This document shows positions 6,490 through 11,842 of a DNA stretch of 64,000 nt, piece by piece. Source of the stretch: Catellatospora citrea (GTDB lineage Bacteria; Actinomycetota; Actinomycetes; Mycobacteriales; Micromonosporaceae); NCBI RefSeq assembly GCF_003610235.1, contig NZ_RAPR01000001.1, positions 4,278,001 to 4,342,000 of the forward strand. The letters run 5' to 3'. Numbering within the stretch: position 1 is the stretch's first letter; the number at the start of each line of letters is the position of its first letter. A program made the position numbers and the translations under genes. The notes beneath the pieces are model-generated. The model did not search any database. It worked only from the letters and a program-made list of their open reading frames with translations, and was not told the origin of the DNA.

Positions 6490-7518
6490 ATGTCGGAACT
6501 GTCGAATCCTGGCCTGGCGGAGGCCGGGCTGCTCGACGAACCCACCACCGCGGACCTGCATGCCAAGGTCGCCGAGGCCTGGCGGGAGTTCGCCAGAGCC
6601 CTGGCCGCGGCCCTGCCGACGCTGCCGGTCGGCAGTGAACTGGAACTGGCACTGGACCCGACCGCGTCGGGCACCGGCTCCGCCGTGTACGGCGTGAGCG
6701 TGGAGTGCCTGGACGACGGCTCGCTGCAGGCGCGGGCGGTCAGCAACGCGAACCTGCCGGACGGGTTCCGGCTGGAGCGGACCGCGATCGCGGCGATGGT
6801 CGCGCTGGGCTGGTCGCCGCCGGGCGTGATGGCCGGGTCGCGGGAGAACTTCGGCATGACCGGCGCGGGCGACGGGCTCGCCAACGTGATCACGCGGACG
6901 CTGCGCGACGTGTACGGCGCCCCGCACCCTGCGTTCCTGGTCTACGAGGCGCACGACCGCGAGGAGGAGCCGGTCGCCATCGAGCCGCTGGGCACCGCGC
7001 GGCACGAGTCGACGGTGGACGCGTTCCTGCCCTCGATCGACTCGCTCGACGCCAGCGGGCTGGACCTGGGCGACCGGGTGCGCATCGTGGTCTCCGCGAT
7101 GCTCAAGTCCGACCCGGACGAGCTGCAGGTGGACGGTGACGGTGACATCGGCATCCGGGCCGGTTCGGCGATGGTGTTCGTGCGCGTCCGGGAGAACCCG
7201 CCGCTGATCGACGTGTTCTCGCCGGTGCTGACCGACATCGAGCCGACCGAGAAGCTGTTCGTGAAGCTGTCCGAGCTGACCAACCGCATGCCGATCGGCC
7301 GGCTCTACTGCACCGCCGGCACGGTCTGGGCCTCGATCCCGGTGTTCGGCCGCGACTTCCAGGCCAGCCACCTGGCCCTGGCGATCCAGGTGATGACGGG
7401 GCTGGCCGACGAGCTGGACGACCGGCTGCACGGCGAGTTCGGCGGCAAGCGCTTCTTCGGCGAGGGCGACAAGCCCGCCGGCAACATCCCCGAGGCCCGC
7501 ATCGGCCAGTACCTCTGA
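6490..7518 (+). CDS. YbjN/TY-Chap-type chaperone-like protein with GQYL tail
   Basis: The 342-residue acidic protein lacks signal peptide and membrane segments. Two alpha/beta segments, one around residues 20-130 and one around 190-325 (DRVRIVVSAMLK, MVFVRVRENPPLIDVFSPVLTDI, LFVKLSELTNRMPIGRLY), resemble the YbjN / type-III-secretion-chaperone fold grouped as TY-Chap in actinobacteria. It ends EARIGQYL. GQYL is the C-terminal motif by which the actinobacterial proteasome activators Mpa and Bpa dock on the 20S core, and the bpa gene in this same window ends identically. A proteasome-linked chaperone or adaptor role is therefore proposed, not proven. GGAGG precedes the ATG by seven bases. A strong terminator follows. 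Confidence 0.7.
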   Translation: MSELSNPGLAEAGLLDEPTTADLHAKVAEAWREFARALAAALPTLPVGSELELALDPTASGTGSAVYGVSVECLDDGSLQARAVSNANLPDGFRLERTAIAAMVALGWSPPGVMAGSRENFGMTGAGDGLANVITRTLRDVYGAPHPAFLVYEAHDREEEPVAIEPLGTARHESTVDAFLPSIDSLDASGLDLGDRVRIVVSAMLKSDPDELQVDGDGDIGIRAGSAMVFVRVRENPPLIDVFSPVLTDIEPTEKLFVKLSELTNRMPIGRLYCTAGTVWASIPVFGRDFQASHLALAIQVMTGLADELDDRLHGEFGGKRFFGEGDKPAGNIPEARIGQYL

Positions 7519-7530
7519 CCGGCTGAACTG

Positions 7531-7566
7531 AGGATCCCGGGCAGGCCGTGGCCCGCCCGGGATCCT
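7531..7566. terminator. bidirectional terminator hairpin
   Basis: Arms AGGATCCCGGGC (7531-7542) and GCCCGGGATCCT (7555-7566) pair perfectly around a 12-base loop. The hairpin lies between two convergent stop codons, so it can serve both genes. Confidence 0.85.
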
Positions 7567-7578
7567 CATGTGTGCAGG

Positions 7579-9423
7579 TCAGAGTGCGACTCGGGCCAGT
7601 TCGGCGGTGCCGGACAGGGTGGTGGCCACGGCCACGGTGTCCGACACGACCCAGAGCGTGTCGTCGATGACGAGGCTGCGACGCGGGTAGCCGCCCGGGT
7701 TCACCTCGCCGGCCTTCTCCAGCGAGCCGGAGCCCACCCGGAACAGCAGGGCGCCGGTGCGCTCCCGCTGGTCGTACGCGGCGTACGGCACCACGAGCAG
7801 CCCGGTCGCCGGCCAGTAGAGGAACGCGTGCGGGTCGTACTCGGCCTCGCTCCAGCCGTGCGGGATCTTCTCCTGGTCGAGCCGCTGGGGGTCCGCGCCG
7901 CCGACGTCGAACAGCGACACCTGCAGCCCGGTCACCCGGCCCCCGTCGGTCGCGTCCTGGCCCACCCCGATGAGCCGGCCGTCGGCGACGGGGTGCAGGT
8001 AGCTGCTGTATCCCGGGATCTTCAGCTCCCCGGCGAGCACCGGGCGGGCCGGGTCGCGCAGGTCGATCGCGTAGAGCGGGTCGGTCTGGCGGAACGTGAC
8101 CACGTATCCGGTCGGGCCGAGGAAGCGCACGGCGTAGATCCGCTCCCCCTTGCCCAGGCCGCCGAGCTTGCCCAGCGGCTGGAGCTGCCCGCCGTTGCGG
8201 CGCAGGGTGTACACCGCGGACTCGCTGGTCCGCTCCCCCGGCCGCTGCCACTGCTGCCCGGTGGTGGTGGCCACCCGCAGCACGCCGTCGTGCTCGCTCA
8301 GCGAGTACTGGTTGAGCAGCCAGCCCGGCACGCTGCCGGACGCCGCGAAGACCGGCCGCGGTCCGGAGACGTCGAACTGGTAGAGCTCGGTGCGGTTCTT
8401 CGCCTGCTCGCCCTTCCAGCCCTCGTCGTGGGCGAGGTACAGGCTTCCGCCGGTGCCGTACACGGTGCGGGCGTCGGCGAGCACCGCCGCCGGCAGCCCG
8501 TCGCCGAGCACCGCGCGGTCGAGGTCGAAGCTGAGCACCGTCACCAGCGAGGTCCCGCTGAACTCGGCGGGCCTGCTGACCTGCCCGCAGTCGAGCCGGC
8601 CGCCGGTGCCGTCGGCGGTGTACGCGGGCAGCCACCGCTCCAGCGGCGTGCTGTCGATGACCTTCCGGTTGGCCGCGATGCGATCCGCGTCGGTGCCCTT
8701 CTCCAGCCAGGTGAAGTCGATCATCGGGTGGGAGGTGACCACCACGCGGGCGGTGCCGCCGGCGAGCCGGGCGTCGGTCAGCTCGGCGCCGATCTCGTAC
8801 TGGCCGGTGAACCGGGGCTCGCCGACCAGGTCGACCAGCCGGAGCCGGGTCGAGGACGGCCCACCGCGTCCGGGCATCCGGGCGTCCGCCACGCCGGCGT
8901 ACGTCATCGCCTGCATGGACGTGAGCACCAGCGCGTGGTCGCCCTGCAGGAAGAGCTGGTGCAGGCCGTTGCCGAGGTGCAGCGAGCCGGTCGCCCGGCG
9001 GCTCGTCGCGTCGATGACCCGCAGCGTGTCGCCGAGCACGGTCACGATGCGCCGGCCGTCGGTCTTCACGATGTCCGGCTCGTCGACTCCCACCTCGTGC
9101 GTGTTGGTGCCGGAGTACGACTTGGCGGCGCCGTCCCCGCCCGCCCGCGAGGCGTCCGCCGTGGCCGGCTGGGCGGCCGGCACGCGCATCCCCCAGTTGC
9201 CGCCGGGCAGGCCCCAGGGGGTCACCACGCGTTTGGCCGCTTCGCGCACCGACTCCAGCAGGTCGTCACAGGTGTCGTACGACACCAGGCGCAGCAACGG
9301 CGCGGGTCCGGGAGACGGGCGGTCCGCGATCGCGCCGCCGCCGGCCGTGCAGCCGGCCAGGGACAACGTGGTGAGCAGGCAGAGCACGCTTCGTCTCATG
9401 CCCGTGTTCGACGTGCGGATCAT
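7579..9423 (-). CDS. secreted beta-propeller lipoprotein
   Basis: This 614-residue protein starts with a lipoprotein signal (MRRSVLCLLTTLSLAGC within the first 25 residues; lipobox LAGC) and then has repeated propeller-like strands such as DGRRIVTVLGDTLRVIDA, GDHALVLTS, LIGVGQDATDGGRV and LLVVPYAAYDQ. It matches the family of secreted proteins with C-terminal beta-propeller domains related to WD40 repeats. EPDIVKTDGRRI is characteristic. It probably sits on the outer face of the membrane as a binding scaffold; no enzyme motif is visible. ATG 9423 has GGGAG eight bases upstream; ATG 9399 is the alternative. Confidence 0.8.
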   Translation of the reverse strand: MIRTSNTGMRRSVLCLLTTLSLAGCTAGGGAIADRPSPGPAPLLRLVSYDTCDDLLESVREAAKRVVTPWGLPGGNWGMRVPAAQPATADASRAGGDGAAKSYSGTNTHEVGVDEPDIVKTDGRRIVTVLGDTLRVIDATSRRATGSLHLGNGLHQLFLQGDHALVLTSMQAMTYAGVADARMPGRGGPSSTRLRLVDLVGEPRFTGQYEIGAELTDARLAGGTARVVVTSHPMIDFTWLEKGTDADRIAANRKVIDSTPLERWLPAYTADGTGGRLDCGQVSRPAEFSGTSLVTVLSFDLDRAVLGDGLPAAVLADARTVYGTGGSLYLAHDEGWKGEQAKNRTELYQFDVSGPRPVFAASGSVPGWLLNQYSLSEHDGVLRVATTTGQQWQRPGERTSESAVYTLRRNGGQLQPLGKLGGLGKGERIYAVRFLGPTGYVVTFRQTDPLYAIDLRDPARPVLAGELKIPGYSSYLHPVADGRLIGVGQDATDGGRVTGLQVSLFDVGGADPQRLDQEKIPHGWSEAEYDPHAFLYWPATGLLVVPYAAYDQRERTGALLFRVGSGSLEKAGEVNPGGYPRRSLVIDDTLWVVSDTVAVATTLSGTAELARVAL

Positions 9424-9488
9424 GCCCGCGGCTCCCGTCGGCATCGAAGCAGCGCCGTCCGGCCCGGACAGGGCCGGGCCGGACGCGG

Positions 9489-9920
9489 TCAGTCGACCAG
9501 GCGGGACAGGACGATCATGCTGCGGGTGCTGGTGATGAACGGCTCCGCGCGGAGCCGCTCCAGCGCCTGCTCCAGGTGCGAGATGTCGGCCGCGCGCAGG
9601 TGCACCAGCGCGTCGGCCTCGCCGGAGACGGTGTACGCCCCGACCACCTCGGGGTGGCGGCGGGTGGCCTGAGTGATCTGCGCGGGCGTGGTGCGCCCGG
9701 TGCAGAACAGCTCGACGAAGGCCTCCGTGCCGCCACCCACCGCCGCCGGGTCCACCACAGCGGTGAAGCCCTTGATCACCCCACCGGAGCGCAGTCGGTC
9801 CACCCGTCGCTTGACGGCTGGCGCTGACAGCGACACCACCATGCCGATCTCGGCGTACGTGGTGCGCGCATCGCTCAGGAGCGCGGAGATAATTCGCTGG
9901 TCAACGTCGTCCAACTGCAC
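9489..9920 (-). CDS. Lrp/AsnC family transcriptional regulator
   Basis: The 143-residue product has an N-terminal helix-turn-helix (DDVDQRIISALLSDARTTY, then LSAPAVKRRVDRL) and a C-terminal RAM/ACT-like ligand domain containing VVGAYTVSGEADALVHLRA. Family members sense amino acids and control their metabolism or transport. Start is GTG 9920: its G is also the last base of the preceding gene's TAG stop (TAGTG), a one-base overlap that implies coupled translation with the amino-acid-type binding protein. That makes a ligand-sensing partnership likely. Confidence 0.9.
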   Translation of the reverse strand: MQLDDVDQRIISALLSDARTTYAEIGMVVSLSAPAVKRRVDRLRSGGVIKGFTAVVDPAAVGGGTEAFVELFCTGRTTPAQITQATRRHPEVVGAYTVSGEADALVHLRAADISHLEQALERLRAEPFITSTRSMIVLSRLVD

Positions 9921-11116
9921 TACCCGAGGGTAGCGAGGTCGCTGATCAGCACGTTCGACAGGATGGGGCCGTCCTTCTCCACCTTGCGCAGGTACCACTT
10001 CTGCTGCGGGGATCGCTGCTGGTTGAACTGCCAGTTACCCCGGGGGCTGATCACCTGCCCGACGTTCGACAGCAGCGTGTTGACCTTCGGCGCGCTGAGC
10101 GTGCCGTCGCCGGCCAGCGTCAGCGCCTGGTCGAGCACCGCCGCGGCGTCGTACGCGGCGACCGCGAACGCCGTGGGGGAGCGCTGGAACTTGGACTGGA
10201 ACAACGACGAGAACGTGTGGTTGGCCAGATTGTTGAGGTCGGCCGAGTAGTGCATCGCGGTGAAGAGCCCGCGGGCGCCGTCGGTGAGCTCGTCCAGCGC
10301 CTTGCCCTCGGCGATCGCGCCGGGGGCGTAGAGCTCGACGTCGCTGCCCGGCTTGAGCCCGGCCTGGCTGAGCGCGTCCATGAACTTGACGATGTGCGAG
10401 CTCGGCAGATTGCAGAAGATCGCCTTGGGGTTCCTGTCGGCGATCTCCCCCGCGTACTGCGCGTAGTCGCCGATGGTCGGCTTGATGCCGCTCCGCACCG
10501 TGATGGCGTCCTGCGCGCCGCTGCCGTACACGCTGGTGAAGCCGAGCATCAGCTCCGCGCCGGCCGTGCCGGGCACGGTGATGAGACTGACCCTGCCGCT
10601 GCCGTTGCCGAGGCGGCGACGCAGGTAGTGGGCGATGGCGAGAGCCGGCTCGTCGGTGAGGTATGAGGTGCGCCAGATGTACGGGGCGCTGGGCATCTCG
10701 GCCGGCGAGGCGTGCGCGGCCAGCAGCGGCACCTTCGCCTCCTCGACCCGGTCGCGGATGAAGGGCAGCAGATCCGGGTTGGCGACGCCCACCACGGCGA
10801 GCACCTGGGCCTTGTACAGGTTCTCCAGCGCGGCGGCACCGGACTTGGTGCTCTCGCCCTCGTCCTCCACCTCGATGCGCACCGGACGGCCGCCGAGCTT
10901 GCCGTCGTGCAGGTCGAGGTAGAGCTTGAAGCCCAGTTCCAGGTCGGCGCCGACCTCCTTGTTCGCTCCGGTGGCGGGGACCAGGAGACCGATGCTGACG
11001 CCGCTGCGCTCGCTGGGCGTGCCAGCGCTCGAGCAGCCCGCCAGGCCGCCGGTCACGCCCGCAACGCCGACGCCGGTCAGCAGACCGAGCAGTCTGCGAC
11101 GGTCAAGGCCGTCCAA
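9920..11116 (-). CDS. ABC-type branched-chain amino acid binding lipoprotein
   Basis: This 398-residue protein has a signal with twin arginines (LDRRRLLGLLTGVGVAG) and lipobox LAGC, followed by a type-1 periplasmic binding fold (Peripla_BP_6): SIGLLVPATGANKEVG, LVDLHDGKLGGRPV-like strands, and VVGVANPDLLPFI. Such proteins deliver amino acids or peptides to ABC importers. No permease or ATPase gene is adjacent, so it is an orphan component, or a receptor paired with the overlapping Lrp-type gene. I chose TTG 11116 because GGAGG lies five bases upstream; the longer frame has no comparable site. Confidence 0.82.
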   Translation of the reverse strand: MDGLDRRRLLGLLTGVGVAGVTGGLAGCSSAGTPSERSGVSIGLLVPATGANKEVGADLELGFKLYLDLHDGKLGGRPVRIEVEDEGESTKSGAAALENLYKAQVLAVVGVANPDLLPFIRDRVEEAKVPLLAAHASPAEMPSAPYIWRTSYLTDEPALAIAHYLRRRLGNGSGRVSLITVPGTAGAELMLGFTSVYGSGAQDAITVRSGIKPTIGDYAQYAGEIADRNPKAIFCNLPSSHIVKFMDALSQAGLKPGSDVELYAPGAIAEGKALDELTDGARGLFTAMHYSADLNNLANHTFSSLFQSKFQRSPTAFAVAAYDAAAVLDQALTLAGDGTLSAPKVNTLLSNVGQVISPRGNWQFNQQRSPQQKWYLRKVEKDGPILSNVLISDLATLG

Positions 11117-11311
11117 TGTGTCCTCCAGAGTGACATTCGGCCGGACGCGCGTACCGGTGGCACGGCCGTTGGGGGTGTCGCCAAACCTGTGGGCGCGCGG
11201 TCTTATGACCCACTGTGGCGTTCTACCGTGTCCTGGCACTCCCGTCAATGATCAACATGGGCCTGTGTCTCGGGATCTAGGATGGGTGGGTTCGACGCTG
11301 AGGAGGTCGCG

Positions 11312-11842
11312 GTGAGCCAGCAGCATCCCGAGGAGAAGAGTGTCGTGGTCGTCGGTCCGGATGGACAGCCCATCGGCACGGTCGAGGTCAACCCTGACGG
11401 CGCCACCGGGCGCGAGGAGGATCCGAGCCGCCTCATCGAGCAGCCGGCCAAGGTCATGCGCATCGGCAGCATGATCAAACAGTTGCTGGAGGAGGTACGC
11501 GCGGCACCGCTCGACGAGGCCGGCCGCCAGCGCCTGGTGGAGATACACCGCCGCTCGATCGTCGAGCTGGAGGACGGTCTCTCCCCCGAGCTGCGCGACG
11601 AGCTGGAACGGATCTCCGTCGACTTCACCGAGGGCGCCACTCCGTCGGAGTCCGAGCTGCGCATCGCGCAGGCGCAGCTGGTCGGCTGGCTGGAGGGCCT
11701 CTTCCACGGCATCCAGGCGGCCCTGGTGGCCCAGCAGATGGCTGCCCGCATGCAGCTCGAACACATGCGCAACATGCCCGCCCTGCCGCCCGGCACGCAC
11801 GCCGAGCCCGGCAAGTCCACCAGCACCGGCCAGTACCTCTGA
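11312..11842 (+). CDS. bpa: bacterial proteasome activator Bpa (PafE)
   Basis: Bpa forms an ATP-independent ring that docks on the 20S proteasome and feeds it unfolded proteins. The 176-residue product matches the former DUF2587 family: RLIEQPAKVMRIGSMIKQLL, LDEAGRQRLVEIHRRSI, helical LRIAQAQLVGWLEGLFHGIQ and QMAARMQLEHMR. It ends STGQYL, the motif that opens the proteasome gate. GTG 11312 with AGGAGG five bases upstream is preferred over ATG 11282. It is monocistronic with its own terminator. The same GQYL tail occurs on the TY-Chap protein 4.3 kb upstream. The proteasome core genes are not in this window. Confidence 0.93.
   Translation: MSQQHPEEKSVVVVGPDGQPIGTVEVNPDGATGREEDPSRLIEQPAKVMRIGSMIKQLLEEVRAAPLDEAGRQRLVEIHRRSIVELEDGLSPELRDELERISVDFTEGATPSESELRIAQAQLVGWLEGLFHGIQAALVAQQMAARMQLEHMRNMPALPPGTHAEPGKSTSTGQYL

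Follow-up and report, generated by a model that had tools for sequence, protein, structure and literature searches.

Does a predicted chaperone encoded close to the proteasome activator Bpa, and ending in the same four residues, itself dock onto the actinobacterial 20S proteasome? We examined this for a gene in a 64,000-nucleotide stretch of the Catellatospora citrea genome (the window). The review passages available name Mpa/ARC, Bpa and Cpa as bacterial proteasome partners (PMC12288473, PMC8223512, PMC6466877). The screen by which Bpa was found is described as starting from the Mycobacterium tuberculosis genome (PMC4254994). Any partner that M. tuberculosis lacks would have escaped it. Our literature search found no paper joining YbjN with the proteasome, and neither YbjN nor Micromonospora appeared in the ProEnd main text (PMC11475706).

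Domains of the TY-Chap protein

The sequence-only reading of the window had proposed that the TY-Chap protein and Bpa share an exactly terminal GQYL, and the translations bore this out. The TY-Chap product (342 residues) ended in EARIGQYL and the Bpa product (176 residues) in TSTGQYL, each followed by a stop codon. The Bpa frame starts with GTG, an alternative ATG being possible 30 bases upstream, and its product matched the BPA domain in Pfam with an E value of 1.6e-72.

Table 1. Features of the window discussed in the text.
Feature	Coordinates	Strand	Basis
TY-Chap3+TY-Chap1 protein, 342 aa, candidate proteasome-docking chaperone	6490..7518	+	translation, Pfam, orthologues
TY-Chap3 domain (PF22552), residues 29-150	6574..6939	+	Pfam, E 2.2e-24, 86.8 bits (cut-off 27)
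TY-Chap1 domain (PF22551), residues 193-324	7066..7461	+	Pfam, E 1.1e-42, 145.3 bits (cut-off 27)
Variable linker, residues 324-338, 15 residues past the end of the FGGKRFF core	7459..7503	+	alignment
C-terminal GQYL tail (G-x-Y-L across homologues), stop directly after at 7516-7518	7504..7515	+	translation, conservation
Bpa (bacterial proteasome activator, PF10759), which is known to use the GQYL tail, encoded near the TY-Chap gene	11312..11842	+	
C-terminal GQYL of Bpa	11828..11839	+	translation

Both TY-Chap domains scored above the curated Pfam cut-off. At E values up to 1 no other Pfam family matched the 342-residue protein, the BPA and proteasome-assembly-chaperone domains included, and no ATPase domain was found in it with Pfam. 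A profile match to Tll0839 (PDB 2plg), which we take to be a YbjN-type protein, extended over the TY-Chap1 part (E 1.2e-8), but covered only this one of the two domains. Proteins with the same two domains (PF22551, PF22552) have been described as predicted peptide-binding chaperones and placed in ADP-ribose conflict systems, and the part of that paper available does not mention a C-terminal proteasome motif (PMC9503650).

GQYL-stop sites in the genome

A search of the 9.33-Mb genome for GQYL followed by a stop in any frame gave three sites, all of them gene ends: those of the TY-Chap protein, Bpa and the proteasomal ATPase Mpa, the last assigned by a full-length match to solved proteasome-associated ATPases (E 2.2e-232). 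The GGNCARTAYYTNTRR pattern occurred 3 times in the genome and the reversed control pattern likewise 3 times, and the raw GQYL count is thus not above chance. The looser GxYL pattern gave 21 matches versus 40 for its reversed control, so GxYL sites are not enriched either, and we rejected the rarity of GQYL-stop as proof. The location of the three sites, at the ends of the TY-Chap gene, Bpa and Mpa, is non-chance. Within the window, the only two GxYL-stop sites on both strands were the ends of the TY-Chap protein and Bpa. GQYL was present in all 30 Mpa tails read, mostly as TGQYL, and in 41 of the 42 Bpa tails read, the remaining one ending in GPYL.

Conservation of the tail

The decisive support for a real observation came from the conservation of the tail, not from the raw site count. 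All of the best 120 of 1219 homologues above the cut-off ended in GMYL (93) or GQYL (27). Of the 61 genomes searched, all had Bpa and 33 a full TY-Chap orthologue, each with a G[M/Q]YL terminus (33/33, own gene counted); all of the best 80 among 203 loci in named records kept the same tail. When a divergent member, 35% identical to the 342-residue protein, was used as the query, 88 of its 97 listed relatives ended in GxYL or GxYI, with M, G, Q, Y or F as x; in deeper relatives G, Y or F stood at position -3. The other nine had no tail, and a precomputed listing shows an additional Chap-C domain in eight of these but not in P0219.

The conserved motif of the tailed TY-Chap homologues is thus G-x-Y-L. 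The earlier claim that the motif is GQYL stood for G, Y and the terminal L, which are kept in orthologues; it did not stand for Q, which varies, and strict GQYL was rejected as the family motif, GMYL being the commoner form among homologues. The tail was present in 209 of 218 proteins (the protein itself, the list of the best 120 homologues and the 97 relatives of the divergent member). The linker before it measured 12-31 residues and had 184 distinct sequences among the 209 tailed proteins, a variability that suggests flexibility. Since the tail is fixed while the preceding stretch changes freely, the TY-Chap protein of Micromonospora-type bacteria is probably an undescribed proteasome partner.

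As a control we took a Cutibacterium protein that has both domains: none of its 120 listed relatives, one of them a fragment whose end is unseen, ended in GxYL. The last four residues took 102 forms in these relatives versus 9 forms in the 218 proteins. Three paralogues matching the TY-Chap1 half only also lacked the tail, and on a tree of 51 rows its presence requires just a single change (support 99/92). Class-wide, the tail was seen in 5 of the 26 TY-Chap-matched genomes with a readable C-terminus, and proteasome matches in all 5.

Docking rule and receptor

According to the published GxYx docking rule, the terminal carboxylate contacts a Lys and the Tyr an Arg (PMC6466877), and the tail of Bpa is reported to be contacted by R26 and K52 (PMC11953334). 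We checked PrcA in three genomes with the tail (G000, G013 and G077), and both residues stood at the same numbers, so that the receptor pocket is intact in these three sequences. The variation of the TY-Chap tail fits the docking rule, with the same tolerance as the known motif. Orthologues without a conserved C-terminal QYL had been named beforehand as the finding that would speak against a docking tail. G, Y and L were kept and Q varied, and because this Q sits at the position reported to be dispensable (PMC6017811, PMC12288473), the objection fails in substance. The TY-Chap protein resembles GxYx/HbYX interactors of the Mpa/Bpa type in having G-x-Y-x at the exact C-terminus, a conserved tail after a free linker and a host 20S in which the docking Arg and Lys are present (three PrcA checked). 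On these sequence features, we consider it very likely that it binds PrcAB.

In 9 of the 11 near-complete genomes compared, no more than 8 kb separated the TY-Chap gene from bpa. A conserved block around the two genes also held genes that, on our own reading of their sequences, we take to be those of MobA, Lrp, an ABC substrate-binding protein, HAD and SerS. As these genes travel along in the wider block, closeness to bpa is weak evidence, and we rejected it as strong evidence. A place among MobA, Lrp, SerS and similar genes also differs from the ADP-ribose conflict setting.

Comparison with known proteasome partners

Bpa/PafE (Rv3780 family, PF10759) is similar to the TY-Chap protein in that a variable linker leads to an identical GQYL end and in having no ATPase domain; its gene lies 4.8 kb away, and the published screen that revealed it was of a similar kind (PMC4254994). 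It differs in being a four-helix bundle that forms a dodecamer (PMC11953334), in contrast with two TY-Chap domains. Mpa/ARC shares the GQYL docking tail but is an AAA+ ATPase ring that reads Pup. Both Mpa and Bpa are rings, and the TY-Chap protein is not known to form one. Cpa, as is proposed for the TY-Chap protein, is an alternative, Pup-independent interactor of the proteasome, but it has no Tyr at the penultimate position, and the five residues at its end are reported to have no major role in binding (PMC6017811, PMC6466877).

Alternative roles of the tail

Proteasome matches (PF00227) were found in all 346 genomes of the host's family, which therefore offers no proteasome-free genome for comparison. 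In 35 of the 346 there was no TY-Chap match, so the proteasome can do without the TY-Chap factor. These 35 genomes speak against the reading that the TY-Chap protein chaperones assembly or guards the gate in the manner of Pba1-Pba2, in which its tail would cap alpha rings or half-proteasomes until the core is mature, with no delivery of clients. Pba1/2 are described as capping the core, with HbYX motifs and with the regulatory particle excluded by their binding (PMC9065996), and Delley et al. left a bacterial assembly chaperone open (PMC4254994); a non-ATPase with two chaperone-type domains would suit such a role. However, assembly of the prokaryotic core is reported to be apparently spontaneous (PMC9855889), and the Pfam matches held solely the two TY-Chap families and none of the Pba1-Pba2 kind. 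We regard an assembly role as unlikely. In yeast, Pba1-Pba2 is a pair of two different subunits.

A census of long open reading frames ending in GxYL in the genome gave five: Mpa, Bpa, the TY-Chap protein, a Cpn10/GroES-like paralogue with the tail GLYL, matched in 230 of the 393 genomes of the host's class, and a DUF5925 AAA+ ATPase. Five unrelated protein families conserve a GxYL end, in most cases TGxYL, and two of them are proven proteasome partners. This argues against a tail that binds something else, be it a different partner or, through a back-folding C-terminal strand, the domains of the protein itself, although conserved C-terminal residues after a loop can pack in this way. The variation at position -3 is what the docking rule allows, the linker differs in length, and relatives with the same domains lack the tail; a binding site elsewhere is accordingly a slightly more doubtful alternative than an assembly role.

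The TY-Chap protein might also dock but mainly compete with Mpa and Bpa, as an inhibitor or a selector of activators, since one or two tails, supplied by a monomer or dimer, would fill pockets without opening the gate. PI31 carries an HbYX tail. It is called a proteasome inhibitor in a title cited in PMC11475706, and excess Bpa is reported to compete with Mpa in a tail-dependent manner (PMC4254994). Simple competition would, however, need no peptide-binding chaperone fold, and we give this reading little credence. Finally, hydrophobic C-termini can act as degrons, but a turnover signal of the TY-Chap protein itself would not usually show so strict a G-4 and Y-2, and Mpa and Bpa share the tail, which makes this very improbable.

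Proposed role and implications

We favour, at rather better than even confidence, the reading that the TY-Chap protein is a proteasome-docking factor, a chaperone or adaptor. Its two chaperone-fold domains would bind unfolded or peptide-like segments, and the protein would bring these clients to the proteasome core without ATP, perhaps helping to open the gate. That client delivery or activation is its role seems to us just over the balance. A chaperone-fold protein docking by GxYL would, if confirmed, represent a proteasome route without Pup or ATP.

The chances appear even that a whole group of partners of the actinobacterial proteasome has gone unrecognised, with the terminal GxYL code, usually TGxYL, in common: the TY-Chap, Cpn10/GroES-like and DUF5925 AAA+ proteins. 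Our literature search found no paper on DUF5925, and none tying the DUF5925 AAA+ ATPase or the Cpn10-like GLYL protein to the proteasome. The boldest of these candidates is the Cpn10-like protein: GroES relatives form seven-membered rings, so that the GLYL tails of such a ring would pair one to one with the seven alpha pockets, and this symmetric cap would link chaperonin-type folding to degradation. Docking by the TY-Chap protein would show the GxYL tail to be a reusable plug on unrelated proteins, and the number of bacterial proteasome partners becomes testable through a simple C-terminal screen.

The TY-Chap protein ends in a probable proteasome-docking motif

The sequence-only reading had placed a GQYL C-terminus on both a 342-residue protein and the proteasome activator Bpa, and translation of the two genes bore this out. 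Pfam confirmed the identity of Bpa and gave the domain order of the 342-residue protein as TY-Chap3 followed by TY-Chap1. When the 9.33-Mb genome was searched with a degenerate DNA pattern for GQYL and a stop codon, three places were found: the ends of the TY-Chap gene, of bpa and of an Mpa/ARC-like gene, whose product matched solved proteasome-associated ATPases from end to end. The raw count was rejected as an argument, since a reversed control pattern also gave three matches. The sites are informative because all three end genes, two of which encode Bpa and Mpa.

In the accessible text of the source papers, the docking motif is given as GxYx, whose terminal carboxylate meets a conserved lysine and whose tyrosine meets a conserved arginine (PMC6466877), PrcA residues R26 and K52 contact the Bpa tail (PMC11953334), and the glutamine of the tail can be replaced without loss (PMC6017811, PMC12288473). 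Mpa ended in GQYL in 30 of 30 genomes read and Bpa in 41 of 42; the other Bpa (locus L022, genome G008) ended in GPYL, a naturally occurring variant at −3, where the motif is free. PrcA of the window's genome was aligned with the M. tuberculosis PrcA chain (3h6f); the alignment was gap-free over the first 103 residues and showed that R26 and K52 are present. Both residues were also present in PrcA of the compared genomes G013 and G077.

Features with GxYL C-termini
Feature	Position	Strand	Evidence
TY-Chap protein, ends GQYL	6490-7518	+	TY-Chap3 and TY-Chap1
Bpa, ends GQYL	11312-11842	+	PF10759
Cpn10/GroES-like paralogue, ends TGLYL	outside the window, G000:C1:3824398-3824736; L251:1501-1842	-	PF00166, E 3.1e-16
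DUF5925 AAA+ ATPase, ends TGCYL	outside the window, G000:C1:7403981-7405060; L260:1501-2583	-	PF19347, E 4.1e-66

Conservation of the tail

All homologue C-termini read (the best 120 of 1219 over the cut-off) carried the tail, as GMYL in 93 and GQYL in 27. The genomes of 60 relatives and that of the window were searched; 35 of these 61 were matched and 33 contained a full-length orthologue; the tail was present in all 33, own gene included (GQYL 13, GMYL 20), the weak and partial matches of G045 and G047 lying outside this set. Named records gave 203 confirmed places, and GMYL formed the C-terminus in all of the best 80, which were read. A relative from another family (genome G077), 35% identical to the window's protein, ended in GGYL, and 88 of the 97 relatives listed for it ended in GxYL or GxYI, where x was M in 78, G in 7, and Y, Q and F in one each, the F tail being the GxYI one. 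For the nine without the tail, the precomputed list gives a Chap-C domain in eight and none in the ninth (P0219). At −3 the family varies between Q, M, G, Y and F, as the GxYx rule allows.

Taking both homologue lists and the window's protein together, 209 of 218 proteins were tailed, with T at position −5 in 168 and I in 34. The linker before the tail was 12 to 31 residues long and had 184 distinct sequences in these 209 proteins. The codons for G, Y and L of the tail differ between orthologues, and therefore it is the protein sequence that is kept, not the DNA.

One very divergent tailed member, P0158 (445 aa, 29% identical to the window's protein), ended in TGGYL, and its long branch in the tree lay next to the tail-less proteins. 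P0123, P0130 and their relatives (Cryptosporangium-type and G077-type orthologues) had an additional N-terminal part (residues 1 to about 130), for which no Pfam match was found in the members scanned.

Tail-less relatives and tree

Relatives of the Cutibacterium protein with both TY-Chap domains, the named members of which are Propionibacteriaceae, showed GxYL in 0 of 120 listed (970 over the cut-off), one of these (P0265) being a fragment whose C-terminal end is not visible. Their last four residues took 102 forms, as against 9 in the 218. In a class-level search, 28 of 393 genomes gave a TY-Chap match; the C-terminus was readable in 26, the matches of G277 and G383 running beyond the fetched stretch, and the tail was found in 5 (G000, G013, G232, G429 and G077) and was missing from 21. 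Three paralogues in tailed genomes, matching the TY-Chap1 half only, were also without it.

A tree was built from 51 rows after linker and tail had been removed from the 38 tailed ones, and one change sufficed to explain tail presence (support 99/92), on a tree with a midpoint root only and long branches (P0158 and P0217 above all), for which the tool warns of false joins. One gain and one loss of the tail would both fit the midpoint-rooted tree.

Other proteins with GxYL ends

The GxYL pattern with leucine as CTN (TTA and TTG were covered for x = Q only) gave 21 genome matches versus 40 for the reversed control, and a true stop followed in 10 of the 21; five of these ended long ORFs and five closed frames of 14–38 residues. 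The long ORFs encoded Mpa, Bpa, the TY-Chap protein, a Cpn10/GroES-like protein and a DUF5925 AAA+ ATPase. Since each of these belongs to protein folding, unfolding or degradation and has a conserved tail, the TY-Chap tail is less likely to have arisen by chance.

Strong matches of the Cpn10-like protein occurred in 52 of the 61 genomes; all 50 read ended in GLYL, and the alignment of the GroES copies of the same genomes stopped at residues 99–110 of 113, without the tail. At class level, 230 of 393 genomes had a match (E up to 1e-15), with GLYL in 30 of 30 loci read. All 20 genomes listed without a match (143 further ones are unlisted) belonged to group f8 of the same order; the f8 genome G389 does have one, and six f8 genomes gave proteasome matches. 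The gene lay 0.8–12 kb from bpa in eight genomes from other families of the order (G042, G052, G047, G057, G051, G060, G038 and G053) and hundreds of kb away in most others compared, including the window's own. The Cpn10-like protein might, strikingly, form a seven-fold ring that carries seven proteasome tails.

Of the 26 AAA+ ATPase loci read, 24 ended in GxYL, with C, Q, M, Y, F, A or L as x. The exceptions were L277, the first copy of a tandem pair of which the second ends in GFYL, and L289 (44% identical), which ends in GFEI.

Neighbourhood and co-occurrence with the proteasome

The TY-Chap gene was 2–7.6 kb from bpa in 9 of 11 orthologue-bearing genomes with no more than four contigs; in G014 and G048 it was far from bpa, and the tail was nevertheless kept. 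Of 20 neighbourhoods inspected, each 20 kb long except one of 11 kb, 11 contained bpa, and MobA, Lrp, an ABC substrate-binding protein, HAD and SerS were also often found. The closeness thus reflects shared synteny and is weak evidence for a functional pair.

Proteasome matches occurred in 346 of 346 family genomes and TY-Chap matches in 311, so that the co-occurrence check proposed in the sequence-only reading finds no contrast within the family. PF00227 was found in 37 of 38 genomes checked, G184 being the one without; G296 had a single PF00227 match, and the Mpa search gave there only a 38%-identical AAA match. Tailed TY-Chap was absent from both G184 and G296, the latter of which encodes the Cutibacterium TY-Chap protein (100% identical to P0220). 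For Propionibacterium acnes, the accessible text of Delley et al. (PMC4254994) gives the core genes as present and both ARC and Bpa as absent.

Possible role

The best supported step of the proposed role is docking of the TY-Chap protein on the α ring. The protein may then deliver unfolded or peptide clients to the proteasome, since TY-Chap domains are predicted peptide-binding chaperones (PMC9503650, accessible text). In profile searches, Tll0839 (2plg) was the single clear match of solved structure and covered the TY-Chap1 part. The protein might instead act in assembly, as Pba1/2 do, or as a competitor; both roles would use the same plug, and the sequence does not tell them apart from client delivery.

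The literature searched contained no link of the proteasome to TY-Chap/YbjN, DUF5925 or Cpn10-paralogue proteins, and no paper on DUF5925; most subscription papers lay outside its coverage, and novelty is not proven. Tailed proteasome interactors are already known, and the TY-Chap protein would be a new one. Genus group g12 of the same family has proteasome matches and no genome among the 311 with a TY-Chap match, and the TY-Chap factor is therefore accessory. Several small g4 genomes (G568, G584 and G599 among them) likewise have proteasome matches and do not appear in the TY-Chap match list. The pattern in both groups is one of lineage-specific loss or absence of the factor, and these genomes are useful as natural knock-outs.
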